A program made the translations under genes and the position numbers. Shown here in pieces: positions 1-22,449 of a DNA stretch of 22,449 bases. This DNA comes from a virus: positions 1-22,449 of the IMG/VR virus record IMGVR_UViG_3300035180_001237; one strand, given 5' to 3'. Each line of letters starts with the position of its first letter. Positions within the stretch are counted from its first letter, which is position 1. The notes below the pieces were generated by a model. It ran no database searches. It was not told the origin of the DNA and saw nothing but the letters and a program-made list of their open reading frames with translations.

Positions 1-1185
1 CCATAATGCAATCATACCATTTATAAAAGATTGGTCGCTATCTAGGTATTCTCCCATTTTTATAACCCAAGAGATAACAGATTTTACACCATTAACTATC
101 TCATCTCCTAATAATTTACCAATAGTATTTAATAATGCTACAATAGGTCTAAATGAGTCAGTAAATTCACCAGTATCGATATTATATACAGATTTTAATA
201 ATTCCTTTAATTTTAATAGTGATCCATTTAGACCGTTTGATATTTCATACTCGAACATTTGAAAAACGTCATGTAAGGCATTAAACATACCTGCTAGCCC
301 GTTTGCTTGTGCTTCACCAGATAAAGCAAATGCTTTAAATTGTTTCTCTAAAAATTCATAAGCTTTACCAGTTTTTATTGCAGTTAAATATTCTTCATGT
401 AAAGCACTACCATGACCTAAACCTAATGCACTTGATAATGTATTTGCTCTACCAATCAATACATCTTTATAATCTCGCATTAATTGATCTTGACCCATTC
501 CCAAAGATTTACCAACAACAGATGCATATCCAGCCATTGTCCTTGCTTGATCTAAATTCATACCAGCACCAGCAGATGGAGCAATTGCCATTTTAAATGT
601 TTCTGCTAATTCTTTTGTTGTTAAACCTAATCTTATAGCATCTCTTTGTAATTTTTTAACTTGTTCGCTTGATATTTCAACAGATTTATTAAAAGCATCT
701 TGTCCCTCTAATATTTTACCATTAGCATCTTTTATTGTATACATATCAGATACAAGACCAGCTATACCATTTTTAGTGGTATCTATATCCATTCTTAACT
801 CTAATGAATTTTTAAATAATTCAAATATACCCTCTCCTATTTTTTCTATTGCTTTTAATCCAACTTCTAATGCAACTAATTCTAATGCTGCATCTTTAAT
901 GGCGTGTTTCATTCCACTAAAAGAATCATGACTTACAGTGCTAATTGCTCTTGTATGAGAACTTACAGCAGATAGATGTGATGTCATACCTGATAATGAG
1001 CTTGATACACTACTTGCACCAGAAGAAGTTGTAGTTGATAATCTCGCTATATCTGCTCTCATACTATCAATAGCAGTTTTAAATGATACTGATACTTGTG
1101 CAGATATATTAGCAATTTTTTTAATTTCTGCTATTGCTTGACTTGCATCAGCTATAATACTAATTTTTATATCTTCGTTTGACAT
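1..1185 (-). CDS. Tail tape measure protein, N-terminal part (cut by window edge)
   Basis: Reading is open from the ATG at 1185 to the left edge, so about 395 N-terminal residues are visible and the C-terminus lies outside. The protein starts MSNEDIKISIIADASQ and continues with long helical, Ala/Ser/Lys-rich stretches and then a hydrophobic segment near residues 85-105. A phage tape-measure-like core follows, containing TKELAETFKMAIAPSAGAGM and a region resembling other tape measure minor tail proteins (LSSALGLGHGSA). Tape measure proteins set tail length and help DNA cross the envelope. Its start overlaps the stop of the chaperone extension by one base (TAATG), so translation is probably coupled. 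Its place right after the chaperone pair is the classic siphovirus order. Identity rests on this context and composition; no catalytic domain is seen in the visible part. Confidence 0.85.
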   Translation of the reverse strand, partial: MSNEDIKISIIADASQAIAEIKKIANISAQVSVSFKTAIDSMRADIARLSTTTSSGASSVSSSLSGMTSHLSAVSSHTRAISTVSHDSFSGMKHAIKDAALELVALEVGLKAIEKIGEGIFELFKNSLELRMDIDTTKNGIAGLVSDMYTIKDANGKILEGQDAFNKSVEISSEQVKKLQRDAIRLGLTTKELAETFKMAIAPSAGAGMNLDQARTMAGYASVVGKSLGMGQDQLMRDYKDVLIGRANTLSSALGLGHGSALHEEYLTAIKTGKAYEFLEKQFKAFALSGEAQANGLAGMFNALHDVFQMFEYEISNGLNGSLLKLKELLKSVYNIDTGEFTDSFRPIVALLNTIGKLLGDEIVNGVKSVISWVIKMGEYLDSDQSFINGMIALW

Positions 1186-4425: not shown

Positions 4426-5946
4426 TTAAGCAGCAATATTATAAATCAAACCAAAAGCTGGTGGGAAGTAATTTTTTAATACGCCATCAAAATAAACACC
4501 ATACTCATATTTACGAGTTCTTAATGGCCATTCCATTTGATAGTAATCACGTCTTAATGATTTTTCTAAAAGAACACCAGTATTACTTAATGGATAAGGT
4601 ACTGATTGACTATAAAACATAATAGTACCAGGAGCAGCATTTGGATGAACTTCAATTTTAATCAAATCACCAGTTATTTTATTTAAATATGATCTAACAC
4701 TTGTCCCTGCTTGTAAAGAGCTAGAACCATTGAAATCACCAGCAAATCTAACTAATGGAGCACCATTGTTTGCAATAACTAATTTTGTAATTAATGTTAA
4801 TACAGAAGCACTTACATAAATTGTATCTGGACTTAAACGATAATTTTGATAGAAAGAAATTAATGCATCTTCAATTTCTTGAACTCCACCAGCACCATCA
4901 CTTGTTAAAGTTGTACCAACACCTGCTGTACCTGTTGCTAATGCTTTAACATAAGAACCTGAACCAGGTTTTAATATTTGAGTCATTATACCGTCATAAA
5001 CAGTTGAGTCAATTGAGTTATCATTAGTAAATAAAGAAGCATTAACAGTTGAAGCTGATACATTATTAATTGTAACAGAGTTAATTGAAGTAACAGCCGT
5101 TAAAACTTCTGAACCAGCAACACCGAAGAACCAAGCATAACCAATTGCACCAGCAACAGCTGTAACACTTGCTGTAACAGAGTTTGTAGAAGTAGCACCA
5201 GTTGTAATTGAAGTAGCTACCGATTTTCTAGCAACACCACCTGCTTTTGTATAAGAAGTACCAGAACCTTGGTCTACCACTGTATAAGTTGGTACCAAAG
5301 TAGCACTTGCTTGAATAAATGATTGATTAACAGTACCGTTATTTAATCCAGCAACTTGTTCATAACCTTTTTTAGATAAAGCAACGCAGATTACATTATA
5401 AGTAATAGCAGTAGGTAAAAGTCCACCAGTAGTAGAAGTAGCAACAGTTGGAGTAGGAGTTGTTCCTAATGCCAAAGTAGCATTACCAGCCAAGTCTAAT
5501 TGTTCTTCTTGAATCATGGTAGCTTGTAAAAGATTTTTAACAGCAAGAGCTTTAACATCATCAAATCCTTTTGCAGCGAAATCAGCTTCAAATGTTACTG
5601 AGTTTTCTAATCCCATAAAGGCAAATTTAGCTAAATAATCAGCAGTTGTTTGAGCCATAACAGCACCACGAGCACCTTCAGCAACACCGATACCCATACC
5701 ATTTGTATTAATACCTGTTATTGCTCTCCAGTTTGCTTGGATACCCATTCCACCAACATTACGACTAATACGATTACGTAAAGGAGTCATAACTGGAAAT
5801 AATAATTTTGCTCCAATTTCTAAATCGTAGTATGTAATACCAGAAATAGCAGATCCTGATTGTGTAAATGATTTAGACAATTCATCAGCAATTGGATTAC
5901 TTTGAGCTGTTTTTAATGCATCAAGAGTTTTTTGTGTTTCATTCAT
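4426..5946 (-). CDS. Major capsid protein (HK97 fold) with an inserted domain
   Basis: A 506-residue protein, longer than the usual 300-400. The start (residues 1-160) and end (about 350-506) look like an HK97-fold capsid subunit: a helical N-arm, LFPVMTPLRNRISRN, an E-loop region with VAEGARGAVMAQTTADYLAKF, and a C-terminal part with LSPDTIYVSASVLT and MEWPLRTRKYEYGVYFDG. Between them lies a Thr/Ser/Ala/Gly-rich stretch (about 165-320) with TYNVICVALSKKGYEQVAG and GYAWFFGVAG. This repeats a strand-turn-strand pattern resembling Ig or fibronectin-like decorations. The gene follows the protease and has a strong ribosome binding site (AAAAAGGAAAT) and a terminator of its own, as expected for the most abundant virion protein. 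No separate scaffold gene is seen; the protease tail may fill that role. Confidence 0.9.
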   Translation of the reverse strand: MNETQKTLDALKTAQSNPIADELSKSFTQSGSAISGITYYDLEIGAKLLFPVMTPLRNRISRNVGGMGIQANWRAITGINTNGMGIGVAEGARGAVMAQTTADYLAKFAFMGLENSVTFEADFAAKGFDDVKALAVKNLLQATMIQEEQLDLAGNATLALGTTPTPTVATSTTGGLLPTAITYNVICVALSKKGYEQVAGLNNGTVNQSFIQASATLVPTYTVVDQGSGTSYTKAGGVARKSVATSITTGATSTNSVTASVTAVAGAIGYAWFFGVAGSEVLTAVTSINSVTINNVSASTVNASLFTNDNSIDSTVYDGIMTQILKPGSGSYVKALATGTAGVGTTLTSDGAGGVQEIEDALISFYQNYRLSPDTIYVSASVLTLITKLVIANNGAPLVRFAGDFNGSSSLQAGTSVRSYLNKITGDLIKIEVHPNAAPGTIMFYSQSVPYPLSNTGVLLEKSLRRDYYQMEWPLRTRKYEYGVYFDGVLKNYFPPAFGLIYNIAA

Positions 5947-5976: not shown

Positions 5977-7134
5977 TTAGTAGTTTTTTCTTATTTTTTG
6001 AGATTTCTTTATTGCTGTTGCAACTTCATCTATTTCATTTGAACCAGATTTATATATTACATCTTCAAATTCATTAGTAATACCTAATTCTTCATTTTTT
6101 GATATAGACATTAAAGAAGCTTTTGCAGGTTTAGGCATGTTTTCTAATTCATTTACTCTTTTTGCTAAATCTTCATTAATTTTTATTGTTTTTTGTAACT
6201 CTTCATTTAAAACTTCAAATTTGTTTAAATCTTCATTTACTTTTGATTTAACAACTTCTAAACCATAACCTTTTAACAAATTAATTATTTCTTCTGATTT
6301 ATTTAAGTCTGTATTTTTTTCTGAATATGCAACACTATCATCTTCATTATCAATATTAACATAATCATTTGAACTTGTCAACTCATCAGTTTCTTCTTTT
6401 GCAGAAGCTACTAATATATTACTTAATGTTTTAATTACTTCAATTAAATCAGATGGAAGTGTTGAGTTATCTTTTTCGTATTTTTCTTCATTTTCCATAC
6501 ATTCTTGCAAATATGCTAATTCTTGAACAATTGAAGCAAGCCAAGCTACATCTGATAAACCTTTTTTAATATCTGTATTATCTTCTGCTTTAATAACTTC
6601 TTCAACAACAACTTCTGCTTTAACAACTTCTTTATTATCCATTATTTGTTCCTTTTCTTCATTATCTAATATATTAATATCTTTGTCAATAGTTTCAGCT
6701 TTAAACATTGTAAAAATGGCTTCTGGATTAGCAGGACGATCAACTAATGATATTTCTACTAATTTAATTTGTTTTATAACTGATTTATTTAAATTATCTC
6801 TTTCTAAAACTTTACCACCAATACTAAAACCTTTATATGTTCCTGTTTGAACTTTTAATACAGCAATTGGATCTACTATATGAGCACCAAACCAAGTTTT
6901 ACCATCTTCACCAACTGATGCTTCAATTGCTGTACCTGCTGCATTATTACCATGCATTTCACGGACAGCACCAAATTTCATATAATCAGGTAAAGCATTT
7001 TTTAAAGCATCAGATGTTATAGTTTCCCCATCAGAGTCAATAGAGTTAGAGCTAGCATAACCCCATACTTTAATTGTACCATCATCTTGTTGTTCTGTTT
7101 TATTAATCTCACCGTAAATTTGTTTCATTTTCAT
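5977..7134 (-). CDS. Prohead protease fused to a scaffold-like C-terminus
   Basis: A 385-residue protein. Residues 1-150 form a capsid maturation protease domain. GYAS is followed by DSDGETI, the likely catalytic histidine is in REMHG (H61), YKGFSIGG lies near 100-107, and the catalytic serine is in EISLVDRPANPEA (S129). This resembles XkdF/HK97-type proteases that trim capsid and scaffold. Residues 150-385 are acidic and Lys/Glu-rich, with a predicted coiled coil (EELQKTIKINEDLAKRV near 315) and a terminal basic segment, typical of an internal scaffold or delta domain. Two close methionines occur (7134 and 7128); I chose the first because AAGGG lies upstream at a normal distance. The gene directly follows structured RNA copy 1 and may share its transcript. 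Confidence 0.9.
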   Translation of the reverse strand: MKMKQIYGEINKTEQQDDGTIKVWGYASSNSIDSDGETITSDALKNALPDYMKFGAVREMHGNNAAGTAIEASVGEDGKTWFGAHIVDPIAVLKVQTGTYKGFSIGGKVLERDNLNKSVIKQIKLVEISLVDRPANPEAIFTMFKAETIDKDINILDNEEKEQIMDNKEVVKAEVVVEEVIKAEDNTDIKKGLSDVAWLASIVQELAYLQECMENEEKYEKDNSTLPSDLIEVIKTLSNILVASAKEETDELTSSNDYVNIDNEDDSVAYSEKNTDLNKSEEIINLLKGYGLEVVKSKVNEDLNKFEVLNEELQKTIKINEDLAKRVNELENMPKPAKASLMSISKNEELGITNEFEDVIYKSGSNEIDEVATAIKKSQKIRKNY

Positions 7135-7194
7135 TTTTTAACCCTTTTAGTTTGTTTTATAGTTATTTGTACTTCTTTTAATTCATCTATATTT

Positions 7195-7472
7195 GTATAC
7201 CCTAGAGCTTAAAGACAAAGCAATCCTATAAGATTTTTCGCTTTATCTTTTAACAATCAAAATATATTTATTAAAATATACCCTGTCGCAATTGACTTTA
7301 TTACAGACTTTATGCAATATAAAAGCTTGGCTAAATTCACAATATCTTTTAATTACACCCTAGACCGGCTCTATAATTCGCACACCGTTGCATCTGTCCA
7401 CATTCTTATGCATTACAAGTTATGTTCGTTTGGCGTTATCCTCTGTATTCCATAACCATTTACTACTCTTCT
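7195..7472 (-). ncRNA. Structured noncoding RNA, copy 1 (unrecognised family)
   Basis: This 390-nt gap between spanin and protease genes holds no plausible ORF but is clearly related to 20983-21260. Both copies lie on the minus strand behind a promoter. Stems seen here: a closing stem (ATACAGAG at 7448-7441 with CTCT and GTAT near 7207-7197); a hairpin TGCAT/ATGCA (7412-7408 with 7393-7389) that becomes TGTAT/ATACA in copy 2; GTC/GAC closing AATTGC; an A/T hairpin near 7261-7280; and an 11-bp 3' hairpin (7250-7240 with 7221-7211, one G-U). Conserved unpaired blocks include AAACGAACATAA and GTGAATTTAGCC. Similarity continues weakly to about 7150, next to the protease ribosome binding site, so the RNA may be a leader or be processed from one. 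It does not match tRNA, tmRNA, RNase P, SRP or 6S signatures that I can recall. Confidence 0.75.
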
Positions 7473-7478
7473 TAATAG

Positions 7479-7507
7479 ATTATATGGTTATATTTTAAAA
7501 AAGTCAA
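7479..7507 (-). promoter_or_regulatory. Promoter of structured RNA copy 1
   Basis: On the minus strand TTGACT (7507-7502), 17 nt, TATAAT (7484-7479). The same -35 and the same T/A-rich spacer start occur ahead of copy 2. Transcription would start near 7472, about 25 nt before the conserved GGAATACAGAGG. Confidence 0.7.
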
Positions 7508-15016: not shown

Positions 15017-15385
15017 ATGTACTTAGAATTTATTAATAAATCAATAAAAAACGGTGAAAAAATTCACCCTAATAATGATTATGCTTTAATTTGGAGTGTT
15101 TCTAATGGACATTTAGATATTATTAAATATTTAGTAGAACAAGGGGTTAATATTAATATTAAAGATGATTTTGCGTTAAGATGGAGTGCTTATAATGGAT
15201 ATTTAGAAATTGTTAAATATTTAGTAATTGATTGTAATATAACTATAAAAGAAGATGTATTACAATTTTTAAAAAAATATGATTGTCAAAAAACTCTTAA
15301 AATTATAAACACAAGAGATTTTAAAAATAAATTATGTAAAGAATTAAATAATAATCAAATAGTAGTTAAAAAAAGTAAGATATAA
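15017..15385 (+). CDS. Ankyrin-repeat protein, short form
   Basis: A 122-residue protein with two clear ankyrin repeats: SNGHLDIIKYLVEQGVNINIK and YNGYLEIVKYLV, residues about 21-75. The consensus N-G-x-L-E-[IV]-[IV]-K-Y-L-V is plain. A helical cap (LQFLKKYDCQKTLKIINTRD) and the shared tail KELNNNQIVVKKSKI follow. It is closely related to the larger ankyrin protein at 21971, which has two more repeats and the same cap. Ankyrin repeats bind other proteins; targets could be host factors. There is no signal peptide. Ribosome binding site is AAAGGAT. Confidence 0.8.
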   Translation: MYLEFINKSIKNGEKIHPNNDYALIWSVSNGHLDIIKYLVEQGVNINIKDDFALRWSAYNGYLEIVKYLVIDCNITIKEDVLQFLKKYDCQKTLKIINTRDFKNKLCKELNNNQIVVKKSKI

Positions 15386-16320: not shown

Positions 16321-17631
16321 TTATTTATTTTTATTTTTTTCCTGGTCTATAAAGTCAAGCCATCCACCGTTTTTATTTTCTGACAATTCAGTCATAGCCC
16401 ATACCATAGCATCTAATCTATCTGGGCTTTTTTCTTTTGTATCTAAACCAGTAAAATTACACATTTGATCCTCTAATTTACTAAAAGTACCAATATGATG
16501 TACCTTTTTTTGCTCGTATAATGCAGATATAGGCTCAGCTCTTATTATTTTACCTCTTGTAGCATGCACCTTTTTATATGATACATTATTATCAATATTT
16601 CTAATAACCTCTTCAATCATATCACCACCGTTATTTACTTCTGCTACTATTCTATCAGCTCTATGTTTATGATATGCATTAATAGCAACAGATGCCCATT
16701 CTGATGGCTTTCCTAACATCGTTAAATCTTCTATTATGTAATAATGTCCATCTTCACCTTTACCAGCAACAATTATACCAGTTAAGTCGCTATTTTCATT
16801 TGATGTTGTTGCTGGATCTATTGCTACTATTATTCTACTAAACGATGTATATTCTTTTACCCTTAATTCATCTAAAAGCTCTAAGTTCCATAAAGCATTT
16901 TCATTTTTATCTAATAACTCAGCGTTTAATTCTTGTCGACCAAGCCTTGTTCCCTCATATTTTGATATTATACTATTAAAAAAGGTTGGTGCTAGATTTG
17001 ACTTATTATCATAAGTTGTACCAACTGTTATTATTGTACCTTTATCTTTTTGTAATTCTCTTATTAATTTTGTTGGCCTAGGAGTTGTTGTTATACATGC
17101 TTGTGGATTTTTACCTAATCTTAAACCAAATACCGCCTGATCCCAAGAGTCTTGATACTTCCAAGCACCTAATTCATCAGCCCATAACTTCATATGTTGC
17201 TTACCCCTTAATCGCTCAGGTTCCTCAGCTGAAAAGATTAGAGATATTGCACCATTAGGCCAATATAAATTACCTTTTTTATATGTTGGACGGTCATATT
17301 TATTACATATAGCTAATATACCAGACTCACCCTCAATCATAATATCAATAGCATCATCCTTGGTTGCTCCCATAAGATTACAATATTTATTAGTTTTAAC
17401 TTGCTCTCTTATCCATTCTGCGCCAACACGAGTTTTACCAAAACCTCGACCAGCCATTACTAACCAATAAGTCCATTTTATATTATTATTAGGGAATCTT
17501 TGCTTATCACGAGCATACCAGTCCCAATCATGAGACAATAGCTCAGCTTCTTCATCTGATAATAAATTAATTCTTTTTATTTGTTCTTCTTTTGATAACT
17601 TTGCAAATAATTCAGCTTTACTAATTGACAT
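16321..17631 (-). CDS. terL: Terminase large subunit
   Basis: A 436-residue packaging motor. Walker A is MAGRGFGKTR (GRGFGKT, residues 61-67), Walker B is LWADELGAW with catalytic Glu at 153, and the coupling motif is TTTPRP (181-186). The nuclease domain has IDPATT (Asp272), VAEVNNGGD (Glu331) and SPDRLDAMVWA (Asp404 and Asp407). Strong resemblance to terminases of proteobacterial phages and gene transfer agents is seen in GTTYDNKSNLAPTF and YEGTRLGRQELNAELLD (about 205-241). Its start overlaps the small-subunit stop by one base (TAATG). Confidence 0.96.
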   Translation of the reverse strand: MSISKAELFAKLSKEEQIKRINLLSDEEAELLSHDWDWYARDKQRFPNNNIKWTYWLVMAGRGFGKTRVGAEWIREQVKTNKYCNLMGATKDDAIDIMIEGESGILAICNKYDRPTYKKGNLYWPNGAISLIFSAEEPERLRGKQHMKLWADELGAWKYQDSWDQAVFGLRLGKNPQACITTTPRPTKLIRELQKDKGTIITVGTTYDNKSNLAPTFFNSIISKYEGTRLGRQELNAELLDKNENALWNLELLDELRVKEYTSFSRIIVAIDPATTSNENSDLTGIIVAGKGEDGHYYIIEDLTMLGKPSEWASVAINAYHKHRADRIVAEVNNGGDMIEEVIRNIDNNVSYKKVHATRGKIIRAEPISALYEQKKVHHIGTFSKLEDQMCNFTGLDTKEKSPDRLDAMVWAMTELSENKNGGWLDFIDQEKNKNK

Positions 17632-18017
17632 TATTCATCTTTTTTATATTCGACAACTATTCCACTTAACAACCTTGATTTTGCATCACTTATTTCAATA
17701 GGGCCGTCATCTTTTCCAGTAATTTCTAATTTATCTGTTTCTTTCCATCTCATTTGAGTTTTGGCATAAAATATCAATAAAGCAGAATCTCCCGACATAG
17801 CCTTTTCAAATAATTTTTGAGATATACTACTATTTGCTTTTGCTTTACCTATTGTTATTTCATGTTGTAAATATTTAACCATTGTGTCAACAGAACATCC
17901 AATTGTTTCAGCTATTTGTTCTTGCGGAAGTCCTAAACCAGACAATTTTTCAACTGTTCTTTTAGTTTCATCTGTTATTTTAAATTTTGGTCGCCCAACT
18001 TGTTTTTTAATAGTCAT
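17631..18017 (-). CDS. terS: Terminase small subunit
   Basis: A 128-residue DNA-binding subunit. An N-terminal helix-turn-helix (residues about 20-55, LGLPQEQIAETIGCSVDTMV) is followed by helices that would form the oligomer ring. The common end motif RWKETDKLEITGKDDGPIE (about 89-107) is typical of small terminases. It overlaps the large subunit gene by one base. It lies 30 nt downstream of the tRNA on the same strand, so the two are probably transcribed together. Confidence 0.9.
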   Translation of the reverse strand: MTIKKQVGRPKFKITDETKRTVEKLSGLGLPQEQIAETIGCSVDTMVKYLQHEITIGKAKANSSISQKLFEKAMSGDSALLIFYAKTQMRWKETDKLEITGKDDGPIEISDAKSRLLSGIVVEYKKDE

Positions 18018-18047
18018 TTTATAATTCCTAATAATATATTATTAAAG

Positions 18048-18120
18048 TGCTGATTGTAAGATTTGAACTCACGACCTACTGATTACAAATCAGTTGCTCT
18101 ACCATCTGAGCTAAACCAGC
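18048..18120 (-). tRNA. tRNA-Thr, anticodon TGT
   Basis: A 73-nt cloverleaf on the minus strand. The acceptor stem is GCTGGTT/AATCAGC (one G-U), with a D-arm TAGCTCAGATGGTAGAGC. The anticodon stem ACTGA/TCAGT carries loop TTTGTAA with anticodon TGT, followed by T-loop GTTCAAATC. The discriminator base is A, and CCA is not encoded. It reads ACA, a codon common in these AT-rich genes. Confidence 0.95.
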
Positions 18121-18143
18121 ATACTATTATTATAATTGAATTA

Positions 18144-18473
18144 TTAACTTAAATCAATATCAGTATTACTTTCGCTTAAATTAATGTATATCTCATTGTC
18201 AATTGTCGTATTTGAGCTTAAATATTTATTAATAAATACATCCAATAACTCCTCAGTTGTATATGATTTTAAATTAGATAATACACATACACAAGTTAAT
18301 AAATCATAATACATGTTTATTTGATTATTATGAGGGTAATATATAAAAGTAATATCATTATAGGTTAATTCATATATTGTTAAATTAACTCTATCATTAT
18401 CAATAATTATAGTCTCACCATCATTTATAATCTTTTCTTTAATTTCTTCTAATACTTTTTTAAATTGTTCCAT
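18144..18473 (-). CDS. Unknown 109-residue protein
   Basis: Starts MEQFKKVLEEIKEKIINDGE. It is helical at the start and beta-rich in the middle (TIIIDNDRVNLTIYELTYND, ITFIYYPHNN), with an acidic end (SESNTDIDLS). No family is recognised. The layout of a short helix then strands is similar to the gene just upstream and to the one at 14629, perhaps a common small-protein fold. It has ribosome binding site AAGGAA and sits between that gene and the tRNA. Confidence 0.65.
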   Translation of the reverse strand: MEQFKKVLEEIKEKIINDGETIIIDNDRVNLTIYELTYNDITFIYYPHNNQINMYYDLLTCVCVLSNLKSYTTEELLDVFINKYLSSNTTIDNEIYINLSESNTDIDLS

Positions 18474-18484
18474 TTTATTTTTCC

Positions 18485-18802
18485 TTAAAGTTTATTTCTT
18501 ATTTGTTTAACTTCATTTTTATTTATAATTTTAGAATTAAGAGAATTATATAATACTAATTTTTTAACTATATCTTTAATTTCTTCTCTCATTTCACTAA
18601 AAGAATTACCATATACATCTTTTTCTAACATATTTCTATATAATTCAACTAAAGAATTTCCTGAGAATATACATATCTTTCTATCATTAGGAATAAAATT
18701 ATAAATGTAAAAACCATTTTTATCAGTTTTAAATAAAAAGTTACCATAAATAAATCCATCTTCTATATTTGAAAGTAATACAATAAAATCATTTTTGTTC
18801 AT
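18485..18802 (-). CDS. Unknown 105-residue protein
   Basis: Starts MNKNDFIVLLSNIEDGFIYG, with beta strands (GNFLFKTDKNGFYIYNFI) followed by a helix (FSEMREEIKDIVKKLVLYNS). The end (INKNEVKQIRNKL) faintly recalls the tail of plus-strand cassette proteins. Its start overlaps the 52-residue gene by 14 nt. Confidence 0.65.
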   Translation of the reverse strand: MNKNDFIVLLSNIEDGFIYGNFLFKTDKNGFYIYNFIPNDRKICIFSGNSLVELYRNMLEKDVYGNSFSEMREEIKDIVKKLVLYNSLNSKIINKNEVKQIRNKL

Positions 18803-18947
18803 TTTTTAATTCTTTCTCTTTATTTACTAAATAAGAACATACAGCAATAACTAATTTGTCATTTTTCTTTTTATATGATATAAATTCATATAATATATAT
18901 AAGTTAAATGTAAAATCAATTGCCAAAATATTATATATTATATCCAT
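18789..18947 (-). CDS. Unknown 52-residue protein, first of the packaging transcript
   Basis: A short frame (MDIIYNILAIDFTFNLYILY, ending VNKEKELKNEQK) with a strong ribosome binding site (AAGGAG) and a cassette-type promoter 23 nt upstream. It is moderately hydrophobic over residues 4-24, with no clear membrane topology. It overlaps the next gene by 14 nt. It was short enough to be missed, but its signals are as good as those of the larger genes. Confidence 0.65.
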   Translation of the reverse strand: MDIIYNILAIDFTFNLYILYEFISYKKKNDKLVIAVCSYLVNKEKELKNEQK

Positions 18948-18969
18948 AATTAACTCCTTTATACAACAT

Positions 18970-18997
18970 ATTTTAAACTATTTTAATTAAATGTCAA
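18970..18997 (-). promoter_or_regulatory. Cassette-type promoter of the packaging block
   Basis: On the minus strand TTGACA (18997-18992), 16 nt ending in ATAGTT, TAAAAT (18975-18970). The -35 box overlaps the last codons of the methyltransferase upstream. It could drive the three small genes, tRNA-Thr and both terminase genes. Confidence 0.7.
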
Positions 18998-19898
18998 CCT
19001 TATTTATTCGTTTAACAGCAATATTATAAAAATCTTTATCTAATTCTATTCCTATAAAGTTTCTATTAGTATTTACACAAGCAACACCAGTTGAACCTGA
19101 ACCCATTGTTAAATCGACAACTAAATTATTCTCATTAGAAAAAGTTTTAATTAAGTCCTCTAATAACAAAATAGGCTTTTGAGTTGGATGATAATTGTTA
19201 TTATCTTTTTTATATTCAAATATAGTTGATTTATGTTTTTTACCTTGTAAATTAAATATTGATGGATAAAGTTTATTATAAATTTCTTTTAGTTTTTTAT
19301 ATTCAATAAATCCATCCATTTTATCTATATTATATAAATCAATTAATTTACTATATGATTTCTCAGTACATAAATTAAATTGAGCACCATTATATTGGTA
19401 AAATTTACTTAATGAACAATTAAAATGTACATTTAATTCTTTTTTACTTATTCCAATAAAACTAAAAAGTAATTTACTATAATTTATTAAAGGATTTGTT
19501 AAACTAGTATCATATTTTTTGTTAAATAATAATATATCTTCATGATATTTAACACATGCTTTTTTAGCAGATAAAGCATTAGCAAACTTATTTTTTTTCC
19601 ATATCATAGAATAAGAATATGGAATATTTACATTTTTATTTATTTTTAATTCTGTTGAAAATGGATCCTGTGCAAATAATAACATTTTACCATTTTTTCT
19701 TAAAATTCTATTAGCAATATCCATAATTTTTTTAGTATCAATAACATTATCCCAATCAAGAGATTTACTACTATAACCACCACTATCATTCATACCTTTT
19801 ATTGTTCCATAAGGTAAATCAGTTATTATTAAATCAACACTACCTGATTCTATTTTATCACTTTCAAATAAACAATCTCCATTATATAACTTAATCAT
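18987..19898 (-). CDS. DNA methyltransferase with DLPY motif
   Basis: A 303-residue orphan enzyme of the beta arrangement. Catalytic motif IV reads IITDLPYGT (residues 24-32), with Leu in the usual DPPY position, a variant seen in some N6-adenine and N4-cytosine enzymes. Further on are DNNNYHPTQKPILLLEDLI and the SAM-binding VVDLTMGSGSTGVAC, then NRNFIGIELDKDF. The region about 100-215 is a longer-than-usual target recognition part. I chose ATG 19898, preceded by GGGGTG; a start at 19910 would add MGCK without a clear binding site. It overlaps the phosphoesterase stop by 4 nt, indicating one operon. No restriction enzyme is adjacent. Confidence 0.88.
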   Translation of the reverse strand: MIKLYNGDCLFESDKIESGSVDLIITDLPYGTIKGMNDSGGYSSKSLDWDNVIDTKKIMDIANRILRKNGKMLLFAQDPFSTELKINKNVNIPYSYSMIWKKNKFANALSAKKACVKYHEDILLFNKKYDTSLTNPLINYSKLLFSFIGISKKELNVHFNCSLSKFYQYNGAQFNLCTEKSYSKLIDLYNIDKMDGFIEYKKLKEIYNKLYPSIFNLQGKKHKSTIFEYKKDNNNYHPTQKPILLLEDLIKTFSNENNLVVDLTMGSGSTGVACVNTNRNFIGIELDKDFYNIAVKRINKVDI

Positions 19899-20872
19899 TT
19901 TACACCCCATTTTTTAACTAATCTACTTATTAATAATTGCTCTGGATCAAATACATCTTTTTTAATATCATTCATTGCCCATACTAATCTTGCATAATGG
20001 TTTCCTTGTTCTTTTAAATATTCCTCATTATGTATATATGAAGAGCCGGCAAATATACCATAAATTGGTGTTCCATCAGCTTTAACTTCTCTATGTATCT
20101 CAAATGATTGTCTATGTCCTTGCACACAATTCATTAACTTTTTTAATATTAATTGTCTAGCACTACATATAGCATTATTCATTCCACCAGAAGTAAAATA
20201 ATGACAATAAGCTATTCCATCTATAATAACTGGAGTTAAAAACGGTATTACTTCAAATCCATATCTGCTTAATTCTAAATCGTCTATACCCATTAAACCA
20301 CCTAATGCTTTATAATTTAACTCCATTTTTGTTATTCTATCCTCATGGTTGCCTAATGTAAAAATAAATCTAGGTTTCCAATTTGTTATGTTATTTTTTG
20401 AATTAATAAAATTTATAATTGGTCGCATCAATTCTTCCATTGCATCTTTACCAGCCTTAATGTCATCTTTGTATTTTTTACCATCAAAAGTTTCTTTTGT
20501 TATTTTAAACATCGATTTCATATCCCAAAAATCACCTAAAAAAATAACAACATTAGGCAATCTACTTATTATTTCATTTGAAATAGAATAAAAATGAGAA
20601 GTATCAACACCAGGTGATATTTGCATATCACTTATAACAAAATGGTTGATTTCTTTGATTATTTCATGAGTGTTTTTAATTATTACAGATGGTTGATATT
20701 TTGAATCTTCATATACTTTTTGATTAGGTTTAACATCTAAAATACCAAATAAACTTCTTTTTCTATAAAGCTCTTTTCTATTAGTATTTAAATCTTTTGT
20801 TAATTTATTTAAACTTGTTGATGATTTAATTAGTTCCACTAATTGTTCTTTTGTTATTTTATGTATATCCAT
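19895..20872 (-). CDS. Calcineurin-like metallophosphoesterase
   Basis: A 325-residue protein. Metal-binding signature pieces occur in order: VISDMQ (Asp82, with Gln84 where most members have His), FLGDFWD (Asp114), TLGNHEDR (Asn175, His176), YCHYF, and VQGHRQSFEIHRE. Residues 1-50 form a separate helical unit (TKEQLVELIKSSTSLNKLTK, then NTNRKELYRKR) that resembles a helix-turn-helix. Phage enzymes of this kind may cut nucleic acid or nucleotide substrates; the sequence does not say which. It has its own TTGACA promoter and is coupled to the methyltransferase gene by a 4-nt overlap, so a role in DNA processing or protection is a fair guess. Confidence 0.82.
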   Translation of the reverse strand: MDIHKITKEQLVELIKSSTSLNKLTKDLNTNRKELYRKRSLFGILDVKPNQKVYEDSKYQPSVIIKNTHEIIKEINHFVISDMQISPGVDTSHFYSISNEIISRLPNVVIFLGDFWDMKSMFKITKETFDGKKYKDDIKAGKDAMEELMRPIINFINSKNNITNWKPRFIFTLGNHEDRITKMELNYKALGGLMGIDDLELSRYGFEVIPFLTPVIIDGIAYCHYFTSGGMNNAICSARQLILKKLMNCVQGHRQSFEIHREVKADGTPIYGIFAGSSYIHNEEYLKEQGNHYARLVWAMNDIKKDVFDPEQLLISRLVKKWGVK

Positions 20873-20929: not shown

Positions 20930-20982
20930 GTAAAAATGATTTTATTTTATATTTAGTTTGTTTATAAAGCATCTATATTCTT

Positions 20983-21260
20983 ATATTCCAGAGCTAAAAG
21001 ACAAAGCAACCCTAATAAAAATCGCTTTATCTTTTGAAATCAAAATATATTATTAAAAAATATATTCCGTCGCATTTGACTTTATCACAGACTTTTAATC
21101 TTTATAAAAAGCTCGGCTAAATTCACGATATCTTTTTTAGATTACCTCCCTACGCTCTATGATTCGCACACGTTTGTATCTAGGGTTCTTCTTATACACT
21201 ACTAATTATGTTCGTTTGACGGTTTTCCCTCTGTATTCCATAATCAACAATTTTACTTGT
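20983..21260 (-). ncRNA. Structured noncoding RNA, copy 2
   Basis: It occupies most of the 560-nt gap between the phosphoesterase and GIY-YIG genes and has no plausible ORF. It is a diverged relative of 7195-7472, collinear with it. Conserved blocks include ATGGAATACAGAGG, CAAACGAACATAA, GTGTGCGAAT, GTGAATTTAGCC and TGCTTTGTCTTT. The closing stem (21236-21229 with 20993-20990 and the ATAT beyond) and the 11-bp 3' hairpin (21034-21024 with 21007-20997) are kept. The hairpin at 21198-21194 with 21179-21175 reads TGTAT/ATACA where copy 1 has TGCAT/ATGCA. A loop CCCTA here can pair with TAGGG downstream, and copy 1 keeps pairing with different bases (TGGAC/GTCTA), which hints at a pseudoknot. Weak similarity continues to about 20954 (ACAAACTA). 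Expression is from its own promoter. Confidence 0.75.
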
Positions 21261-21266
21261 ATTTAG

Positions 21267-21294
21267 ATATTAATATATTTTTAAAAAAAGTCAA
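21267..21294 (-). promoter_or_regulatory. Promoter of structured RNA copy 2
   Basis: On the minus strand TTGACT (21294-21289), 16 nt, TAATAT (21272-21267). The -35 box and following T run match those of copy 1. Predicted start is near 21260. Confidence 0.65.
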
Positions 21295-21316: not shown

Positions 21317-21344
21317 TTGACAAACTTATTATAGTATGTTATAT
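21317..21344 (+). promoter_or_regulatory. Orphan plus-strand promoter before a hairpin
   Basis: TTGACA (21317), 16 nt, TTATAT (21339). ACAAACTTATTATA is shared with the portal promoter. No gene follows on this strand before 21971; the transcript would enter the hairpin at 21392 and run antisense to the GIY-YIG gene. Confidence 0.55.
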
Positions 21345-21391
21345 ATATATTAATGTTTATTAAATAACAGATTTTCTCTCTTCTCTTGTGT

Positions 21392-21428
21392 GATGAAACT
21401 AGGACCCTCTGCCTAGTTTTGTTACATC
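21392..21428 (+). other. Hairpin, possible small-RNA end or transcription barrier
   Basis: AAACTAGG (21396-21403) pairs with CCTAGTTT (21412-21419), loop ACCCTCTG. Flanking GATG and CATC add a further 4-bp stem across an internal loop. A pyrimidine-rich run (TTTTCTCTCTTCTCTTG) precedes it. There is no T run after it on either strand, so ordinary termination is not certain. Confidence 0.55.
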
Positions 21429-21435
21429 TATACTA

Positions 21436-21858
21436 TCAATTAATAGTTTTATTTAATATATTCTTTTTATAAACCCTTGCAACGATATTTGCATTATACC
21501 AATTATCTGTTTCTACCACTTCATTTATAAATTGTAGTTTTGCTTCATAATAATTCAATTGAGCAACACTATTACAAAATAAAAGTATCTCCCTTTTGAA
21601 AAATTTTTTATCGCTATTATTTATATCTTCTGTTAATTCTTTACATGAACCATAATAAGTTTTCCAATTAGACTCTTTTCTTATTTTCTTTTTTTTACCT
21701 TTAATTGTTTTATATCCAGCCATTGTTAAAAGCTTTCTTCCTATATATTTTTTATTATTAACAGTATTAGTTATAATATAAATAAAACCTATCATATTAG
21801 GCTCAATTTCTTCACTATTTATTATATTGTTATTATATATCCATTCTTTAAAATTCAT
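21436..21858 (-). CDS. GIY-YIG nuclease, probable homing endonuclease
   Basis: A 140-residue protein with a GIY-YIG domain: GFIYIITN (residues 24-31), KKYIGRK (36-42), and FFKREILLFCNS with the likely metal-binding Glu in NYYEAKLQF (E105). A Lys-rich loop (TIKGKKKKIRK, about 51-61) may contact DNA. It resembles free-standing phage homing nucleases of the Seg type, without the long C-terminal DNA-binding tail, so it is either a minimal nuclease or a trimmed one. It lies near the second structured RNA. A ribosome binding site AAAGGA precedes the ATG. Confidence 0.8.
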   Translation of the reverse strand: MNFKEWIYNNNIINSEEIEPNMIGFIYIITNTVNNKKYIGRKLLTMAGYKTIKGKKKKIRKESNWKTYYGSCKELTEDINNSDKKFFKREILLFCNSVAQLNYYEAKLQFINEVVETDNWYNANIVARVYKKNILNKTIN

Positions 21859-21970: not shown

Positions 21971-22449
21971 ATGGATTTAAATGATAAACTTATAATAGTA
22001 TCAAATAATGGACAACTAGAAATAGTTAAATATTTAGTTGAACAAGGTGCTGATATTCATGCTGAGGATGAAAAAGCATTAATATATAGTGCTTTGAATG
22101 GATATTTAGAGGTTGTTAAATATTTAGTAGAACAAGGCGCTGATATTCATGCTAATAATAATAATTCATTAAGATGGAGTGCATATAATGGAAACTTAGA
22201 AGTAGTTAAATATTTAGTTGAACAAGGTGCTAATATTCATGTTGAGGATGATTATATATTAAGGAATAGTGCAAATAATGGACACTTAGAAATAGTAAAA
22301 TATTTAATTATTGATTATAATATGACTATAAAAAAAGAAATATTAAAATATTTACAAAAAAATAATTTATCAGAAGTTATTAATATAATTAATGCAAGAG
22401 ATTTAAAAAATAAATTACAAAAAGATTTAAATAATAATAAAATAATTGT
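21971..22449 (+). CDS. Ankyrin-repeat protein, long form (cut by window edge)
   Basis: About 159 residues are visible, starting MDLNDKLIIVSNNGQLEIVK, and the frame is open at the right edge. Four ankyrin repeats follow each other, each ending in LE[IV]VKYLVEQGA or a variant, with the loop ADIHAxD. A cap (ILKYLQKNNLSEVINIINARD) and the start of the shared tail (LQKDLNNNKII) match the shorter protein at 15017. It has the cassette promoter and strong ribosome binding site AGAGGAGAAA. Likely a cytoplasmic protein-binding scaffold. Phage ankyrin proteins are known from sponge symbiont phages, where they affect eukaryotic cells, but there is no signal peptide here to support secretion. Confidence 0.85.
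   Translation, partial: MDLNDKLIIVSNNGQLEIVKYLVEQGADIHAEDEKALIYSALNGYLEVVKYLVEQGADIHANNNNSLRWSAYNGNLEVVKYLVEQGANIHVEDDYILRNSANNGHLEIVKYLIIDYNMTIKKEILKYLQKNNLSEVINIINARDLKNKLQKDLNNNKII

Follow-up and report, generated by a model that had tools for sequence, protein, structure and literature searches.

The question raised by the window, as we call the whole 22,449-base stretch analysed here (IMG/VR record IMGVR_UViG_3300035180_001237), is what function is served by a folded RNA that a tailed phage carries in two diverged copies. Genes annotated in the window include those for a portal, TerL, a prohead protease, an endolysin and an Rz-like spanin; a further gene probably encodes the major capsid protein, judging from its position and from relatives. 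We find that the RNA belongs to a previously undescribed family in dozens of uncultured phages and that, as it usually heads a long block of virion or replication genes, it probably serves as a control element within transcripts of the phage itself.

Two diverged copies of one folded RNA

A sequence-only reading had proposed that 7195-7472 and 20983-21260 are diverged copies of a conserved RNA. Alignment bears this out: the two are 76% identical over ~345 nt (E 3e-58), a similarity far above chance, and are homologous. The alignment overruns the ends first proposed, upstream into the promoter, where TTGACTTTTTT is common to both, and downstream to ~7191 and ~20976 (Table 1). Folded singly, neither copy has a significant energy (z -1.5 and -1.8), although the opposite strand does worse (z +0.5). 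Near-identical relatives of the window phage are present in three metagenomes, and a distinct phage (IMGVR_UViG_3300002461_000454), whose capsid is 64% identical to that of the window phage, also has two RNA copies (c3 and c4). No copy was found in other phages with a related TerL or capsid (MW202545, RLK, MW202777, OP947159 and L057-L086 except L071).

In these four AT-rich copies, P2 (GTTATG/CATAAC, ATTATG/CATAAT, TTGTAG/CTACAA, AGTTTG/CAAACT), the closing pairs of P4 (CGG/CCG, ACG/CGT, ACG/CGT, TGG/CCA) and the pseudoknot (TGGAC/GTCTA, CCCTA/TAGGG, CCCC/GGGG, GCGC/GCGC) are all complementary. The change in P3 from TGCAT/ATGCA to TGTAT/ATACA, noticed earlier in the window copies as one that keeps the stem, is real, and P3 reads GTGC/GCAC and TGCAT/ATGCA in the two further homologues. 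The pseudoknot had likewise been said to survive a paired change, and the last two of its pairings listed above extend that to the further copies. A closing stem and an 11-bp 3' hairpin had also been described as kept. The hairpin stands, whereas the closing stem is not established: CTCT has one possible AGAG partner at the 5' end and another in the core, and covariation favours neither.

The minus-strand promoter TTGACT-17-TATAAT that had been reported before copy 1 is present, with 11/12 consensus matches, and a weaker one (9/12) precedes copy 2. Such matches are no commoner in the AT-rich window DNA than in shuffles (157 vs 164), and both promoters are therefore plausible, not proven. The -10 element of copy 1 lies ~20 nt before P2, as in one GC-rich subgroup; the promoter stands directly before the RNA, and there is no terminator between the RNA and the protease gene.

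Table 1. Features of the two RNA copies, their surroundings in the window and the copies of the second AT-rich phage.
Feature	Position	Strand	Remark
RNA copy 1	7191..7472	-	From alignment with copy 2 and L071/L091; probable 5' end ~7472, probable 3' end at or after X'
Promoter, copy 1	7479..7507	-	Putative; TTGACT-17-TATAAT
P2, copy 1	7419..7456	-	GTTATG (7456-7451) / CATAAC (7424-7419); compensatory changes in AT-rich and GC-rich sets
P3, copy 1	7389..7412	-	TGCAT (7412-7408) / ATGCA (7393-7389); compensatory changes
P4, copy 1	7366..7387	-	Invariant core GTGnGCGAATnnnAGAGC (7385-7368), closed by CGG/CCG
Pseudoknot, copy 1	7361..7400	-	P3 loop TGGAC (7400-7396) with GTCTA (7365-7361)
Segment X, copy 1	7277..7284	-	AGGGTATA; identical to X'
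Segment Y, copy 1	7258..7268	-	AATATATTTTG; complementary to X and X'
3' hairpin P10, copy 1	7211..7250	-	AAAGATAAAGC / GCTTTGTCTTT; conserved AAAGCG...TATAGGATTGC; motif also in L311 and GC-rich members
Segment X', copy 1	7196..7203	-	AGGGTATA; directly after CTCT
Prohead protease	5977..7134	-	First gene after copy 1
Major capsid	4426-5946	-	After the protease gene; putative, from position and relatives
RNA copy 2	20976..21260	-	From alignment with copy 1
Promoter, copy 2	21267..21294	-	Putative, weak; TTGACT-16-TAATAT
P2, copy 2	21205..21244	-	ATTATG / CATAAT
P3, copy 2	21175..21198	-	TGTAT / ATACA
P4, core motif, copy 2	21152..21174	-	Model R1, E 0.023
Pseudoknot, copy 2	21148..21185	-	CCCTA / TAGGG
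Segment X, copy 2	21061..21068	-	GGAATATA
Segment X', copy 2	20982..20989	-	GGAATATA
Genes after copy 2	16321..20872	-	Metallophosphoesterase, DNA methyltransferase, tRNA-Thr, TerS, TerL
TerS	17631-18017	-	Downstream of copy 2
TerL	16321-17631	-	Downstream of copy 2
RNA c3, second AT-rich phage	L071:6427-6719		Between spanin and protease
RNA c4, second AT-rich phage	L091:918-1245	-	Adjoins SegE-like GIY-YIG gene, like copy 2

Free-standing homing-type endonucleases adjoin the RNA in three lineages. A SegE GIY-YIG gene lies beside copy 2 of both AT-rich phages, in differing orientation (window 21436-21858, minus strand; L091 ~490-915, plus strand), and an HNH-like gene is antisense to the RNA in L160 (2227-2721, plus strand). 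Several ankyrin-repeat-like proteins are encoded as well (window 15017-15385 and 22012-22449; G002 157-1606), and small genes ending in KKSKI adjoin them. At window 21330-21425 (plus strand), a divergent promoter-like TTGACA...TATATA is followed by a short stretch and a terminator-like hairpin (AAACTAGG/CCTAGTTT), possibly a small RNA opposite copy 2.

A family of AT-rich and GC-rich members

Viral contigs were scanned with the core motif common to the AT-rich copies (GUGnGCGAAUnnnAGAGC / GTGNGCGAATNNNAGAGC). Besides many chance matches, the scan returned a GC-rich group where complementary bases close the core, a P3-like hairpin comes before it and AGTCTG comes after; a second scan enlarged this GC-rich branch to ~50 contigs of uncultured phages. 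RNA length in the family is 220-280 nt. Model R1 (113 positions) was built from GC-rich members with the intermediate L311 left out, and detects L311 at E 9e-13. With filters off, its top two matches in the window are copy 1 at E 0.012 and copy 2 at E 0.023, both weak, and in the second AT-rich phage the two copies likewise rank first (with model R2, at E 0.004 and 0.067); these AT-rich E-values are not fully independent, the scan motif having been derived from AT-rich copies. The 3' domain, like the repeat X = X', was unused in the search, and it reads AAAGCG...TATGGGCTTGC in GC-rich members and AAAGCG...TATGGACTTGC in L311, beside the copy 1 form in Table 1. The window copies and the GC-rich branch thus have in common the core, P3 and P4, a 3' domain of the form AAAGCG...TAURGRYUUGC and the repeat X = X' described below. 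Because the model E-values reach only 0.004-0.067, the link between the two branches rests on several features together; it appears strong in pattern and modest in model score.

Covariation in further homologues, which the sequence-only reading had named as a check on its proposal, was found. P2, P3 and P4 were tested on 18 aligned GC-rich members against 500 shuffles and slid controls. The three helices are paired in 98.8% of cells, a level that 0/500 shuffles reach (77.5% in shuffles); changes on both sides are seen at 10/14 pairs, and slid controls pair <56%.

A covariance-model scan of Rfam 15 gave no match reaching the gathering score, either for the window copies or for eight GC-rich loci, consistent with the earlier statement that the RNA matches no known family; permissive Rfam scans returned noise only. 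A group I intron was rejected, with no model match up to E 10 and both flanking genes complete. The GC-rich members had no blastn match among cultured phages and plasmids, and a scan of genome contigs found no cellular member, the three readable of its four matches being due to chance. Distant blastn of L311 pointed to Lactococcus phage 949 and relatives, where the match is the TGTGGATAAC DnaA-box repeat 3' of the RNA and the family model finds nothing. Papers on structured RNAs of phages, on RNAs linked to terminase genes and on antitermination at late leaders were searched, and no description of the element was found.

Each of the earlier checks that could be carried out favoured the sequence-only reading. 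The picture of a free-standing RNA in two copies gives way to a widespread family, usually in single copy, located 5' of operons and lacking a terminator of its own. GC-rich phages have one copy per 20-56 kb contig and AT-rich phages two.

An exact repeat and its complement

The most distinctive feature of the RNA, missed by the sequence-only reading, is a segment X of 5-10 nt, before or within the 3' domain, of which nearly every well-covered member has an exact repeat, X', 60-80 nt further on. X varies between phages (CGGCAG, GCGACA, AGGGTGGG, AAGGAGAA, CTGAGGCATA, GAAGCATA and TTGCCAGA are examples) while X = X' within each, and in most members X' comes directly after TTCACCA (GC-rich) or CTCT (AT-rich). 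Exceptions are L311, L113 and L197, of which the last two keep five bases only, and L130 and L247, with one mismatch. Over 18 members the summed match length of X and X' is 137, compared with 103 for the best of 20,000 partner shuffles, a significance somewhat inflated by the compared stretches having been picked by eye; the test is weak when restricted to the four AT-rich copies (855/20,000 shuffles). Such covariation by identity, rather than by complementarity, is rare and is not scored by standard RNA searches.

No other consistent X site was found in the phage genomes searched, and X would therefore act locally. A role for X as a guide to other genomic targets, in the style of TnpB or IS110, was rejected when the count of X sites gave nothing consistent beyond the pair, and a target-site duplication of a mobile element was considered and set aside. 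Between X and X' lies segment Y, which can pair with either in most members (CAGGGTATATT/AATATATTTTG in copy 1, GAAGCATAG/CTGTGCTTT in L193); the pairing is weak in L141 and L155. We read X-Y-X' as a possible switch.

Placement and proposed role

Where contigs are long, the genes that follow the RNA usually form a run on its strand, a statement that is approximate given crude gene calls. Most commonly it lies directly before terS-terL. The genes downstream are TerS of unrelated PHROG families followed by TerL, moron-like genes with head genes, or replication genes; head genes follow copy 1 of the window and c3, a primase/helicase follows in L193 and a replication initiation gene in L155. Near-identical RNAs precede differing first genes, 8 to 1000 nt away, with sequence diverging right after X', and so the RNA is not tied to one gene. 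In G011 the RNA comes after TerL, and in G012 TerL is 13 kb from it; the genes downstream in G012 and G013 are replication genes, not a late operon. In L311 an antisense gene block separates the RNA from the TerS gene, 4.6 kb away, and four DnaA-box-like 9-mers (TGTGGATAA type) lie directly 3' of the RNA (1505-1575); no such cluster follows the RNA in 16 other contigs. Lactococcus phage 949 and its relatives (L375) have similar repeats in a 1-kb gap without annotation. In most contigs the sign of the GC skew is constant over much of the length, with the RNA strand G-rich and no turn at the RNA (G005-G020, G001, G002). The TerL of ~750 aa in L118 (413-2665) and L113 (3305-5560) gives a two-part alignment with relatives, as a large insertion such as an intein would cause.

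Sense-strand promoters are found upstream of the RNA in most relatives, where sigma70 matches average 8.9, compared with 7.4 on the antisense strand and 7.3 downstream. Most GC-rich members have a TTGACA/TATAAT-like promoter 115-170 nt upstream, then a structured leader with an intrinsic terminator, then the RNA, and a T-run of at least 5 occurs within 70 nt upstream of P2 in 40/42 members. On the 3' side, a terminator within 160 nt is found in 0/42. The second leader of the GC-rich phages, 115-190 nt with a complex intrinsic terminator at its end, was seen in L178 (~800-930) and also upstream of the RNA in L116, L131, L155, L160, L118, L137 and L243; it resembles an attenuator or a small RNA in its own right.

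Since the RNA lies 5' of operons and has no terminator of its own, it is most likely the leader of a longer transcript. Most members have a promoter, the RNA and a long co-oriented operon in that order, the exceptions being L311 and, with their replication genes, G012 and G013. Our tentative explanation, to which we give somewhat less than an even chance, is a new family of structured RNAs with which long late (or replication) transcripts would begin and which would act in cis on RNA polymerase. P2, P3 (with the loop pseudoknot in AT-rich copies), P4 with its invariant core and the 3' domain would fold during synthesis. Y would pair first with X and, once the identical X' was made, could swap to X', so that the fold would change when RNA polymerase is a fixed distance away; the folded nascent RNA would then let its own polymerase run through the long operon, as HK022 put RNA does. 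The window phage may have two copies because it has two late promoters. Stated more broadly, the proposal is of a new RNA class placed where the late operons of many uncultured phages start, with X kept identical to the 3' border and a swap of Y gating RNA polymerase or replication, and in this form it comes close to an even chance. However, several observations speak against a leader acting in this way. The terminator of the GC-rich phages would be out of the RNA's reach because it is placed between promoter and RNA, and strong intrinsic terminators are so rare downstream (8 in 316 kb) that a need for antitermination is not visible. The odd placement in L311, with its DnaA-box-like repeats, the replication genes of G012 and G013 and the weak Y of L141 and L155 count against it as well.

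The position directly before terS-terL, the complex fold with invariant loops and the low copy number would also suit an RNA processed from the late transcript and acting in trans, either as a pRNA-like part in packaging or assembly or as a binder of a phage or host protein. We consider this unlikely: the RNA is conserved beside unrelated TerS families and also away from TerS (in G012 and G011), it usually reads into the downstream genes, and two diverged copies per phage are unexpected for a ring component. An untranslated 5' element governing translation or stability of the first gene only would equally be a leader without its own terminator, and the distance to the first gene is often <150 nt. 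However, the variety and spacing of first genes behind near-identical RNAs, the antisense genes that intervene in L160 and L091 and the divergence that begins right after X' make it quite improbable. Lambda cos adjoins terS, and the single copy beside terS in GC-rich phages would be similarly placed if the element were a DNA site (cos, pac or origin) and not an RNA. Compensatory helix changes and an invariant U-G pair argue otherwise, as do the window phage, whose two copies differ in X, the unrelated TerS families and the copies that lie away from terS. Moreover, a cos or pac site would occur once per genome at the start of packaging, whereas the window phage and G001 have two copies and those of G011 and G012 are not before terS, and we regard a DNA site as highly improbable. 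These three readings, as a packaging RNA, a first-gene leader or a DNA site, are the less likely ones.

A replication RNA like ColE1 RNA II, in which an X-Y-X' switch in the style of alpha, beta and gamma controls priming at an origin just downstream, would explain the layout, which is that of the RNA II segments, the 9-mers just 3' of the RNA in L311 and the replication genes that adjoin it in L155 and L193. Against it stand the contigs in which no DnaA-box cluster follows the RNA, a GC skew that does not turn there and the location of most copies at packaging or head genes; we find it rather doubtful, and keep it in consideration because of the placement in L311 and the alpha-beta-gamma-like repeat.

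If the cis-acting leader is correct, elongation at the late operons of many uncultured phages would be controlled by RNA only. To our knowledge, such control is known from very few phages (put) and from no late operon. The dozens of members and the invariant core make the question of elongation control testable, and the family adds a structured RNA that Rfam lacks.

Among known systems, phi29 pRNA is likewise a phage RNA, and many members of the new family are tied by position to packaging genes; their phages are unrelated to phi29-like phages and have TerS. The late leader of lambda, pR'-tR', resembles the GC-rich phages in that a strong promoter and an intrinsic terminator precede late genes; its antiterminator is the protein Q, and the conserved RNA after the terminator is without a lambda counterpart. 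In ColE1 RNA II, one complement can be taken by an internal segment or by an identical one made later, as Y could be by X or X'. The likeness is one of layout only, and unlike in ColE1 the hint of an origin downstream is limited to the DnaA-box-like repeats of L311. ROOL and GOLLD are far longer and free-standing, and the earlier view that the RNA differs from them agrees with the empty Rfam scan. Like the new RNA, both are structured, come from uncultured phages and have no known function (PMC12286853). Closest is HK022 put RNA, of which one copy lies directly after a promoter and another ~270 nt after, and which needs no phage protein to act on RNA polymerase (PMC9378689). Like putL and putR, the new RNA is a folded RNA that would lie early in a long transcript, after a sigma70 promoter, with two related copies in the window phage (PMC9378689). 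However, put is ~70 nt long, has two stem-loops and belongs to the early operons of a lambdoid phage, and by this description the two differ in size and fold and are not of one family (PMC9378689): the RNA described here has an invariant core, a pseudoknot and the X-Y-X' repeat within its 220-280 nt, and stands mostly before late operons.
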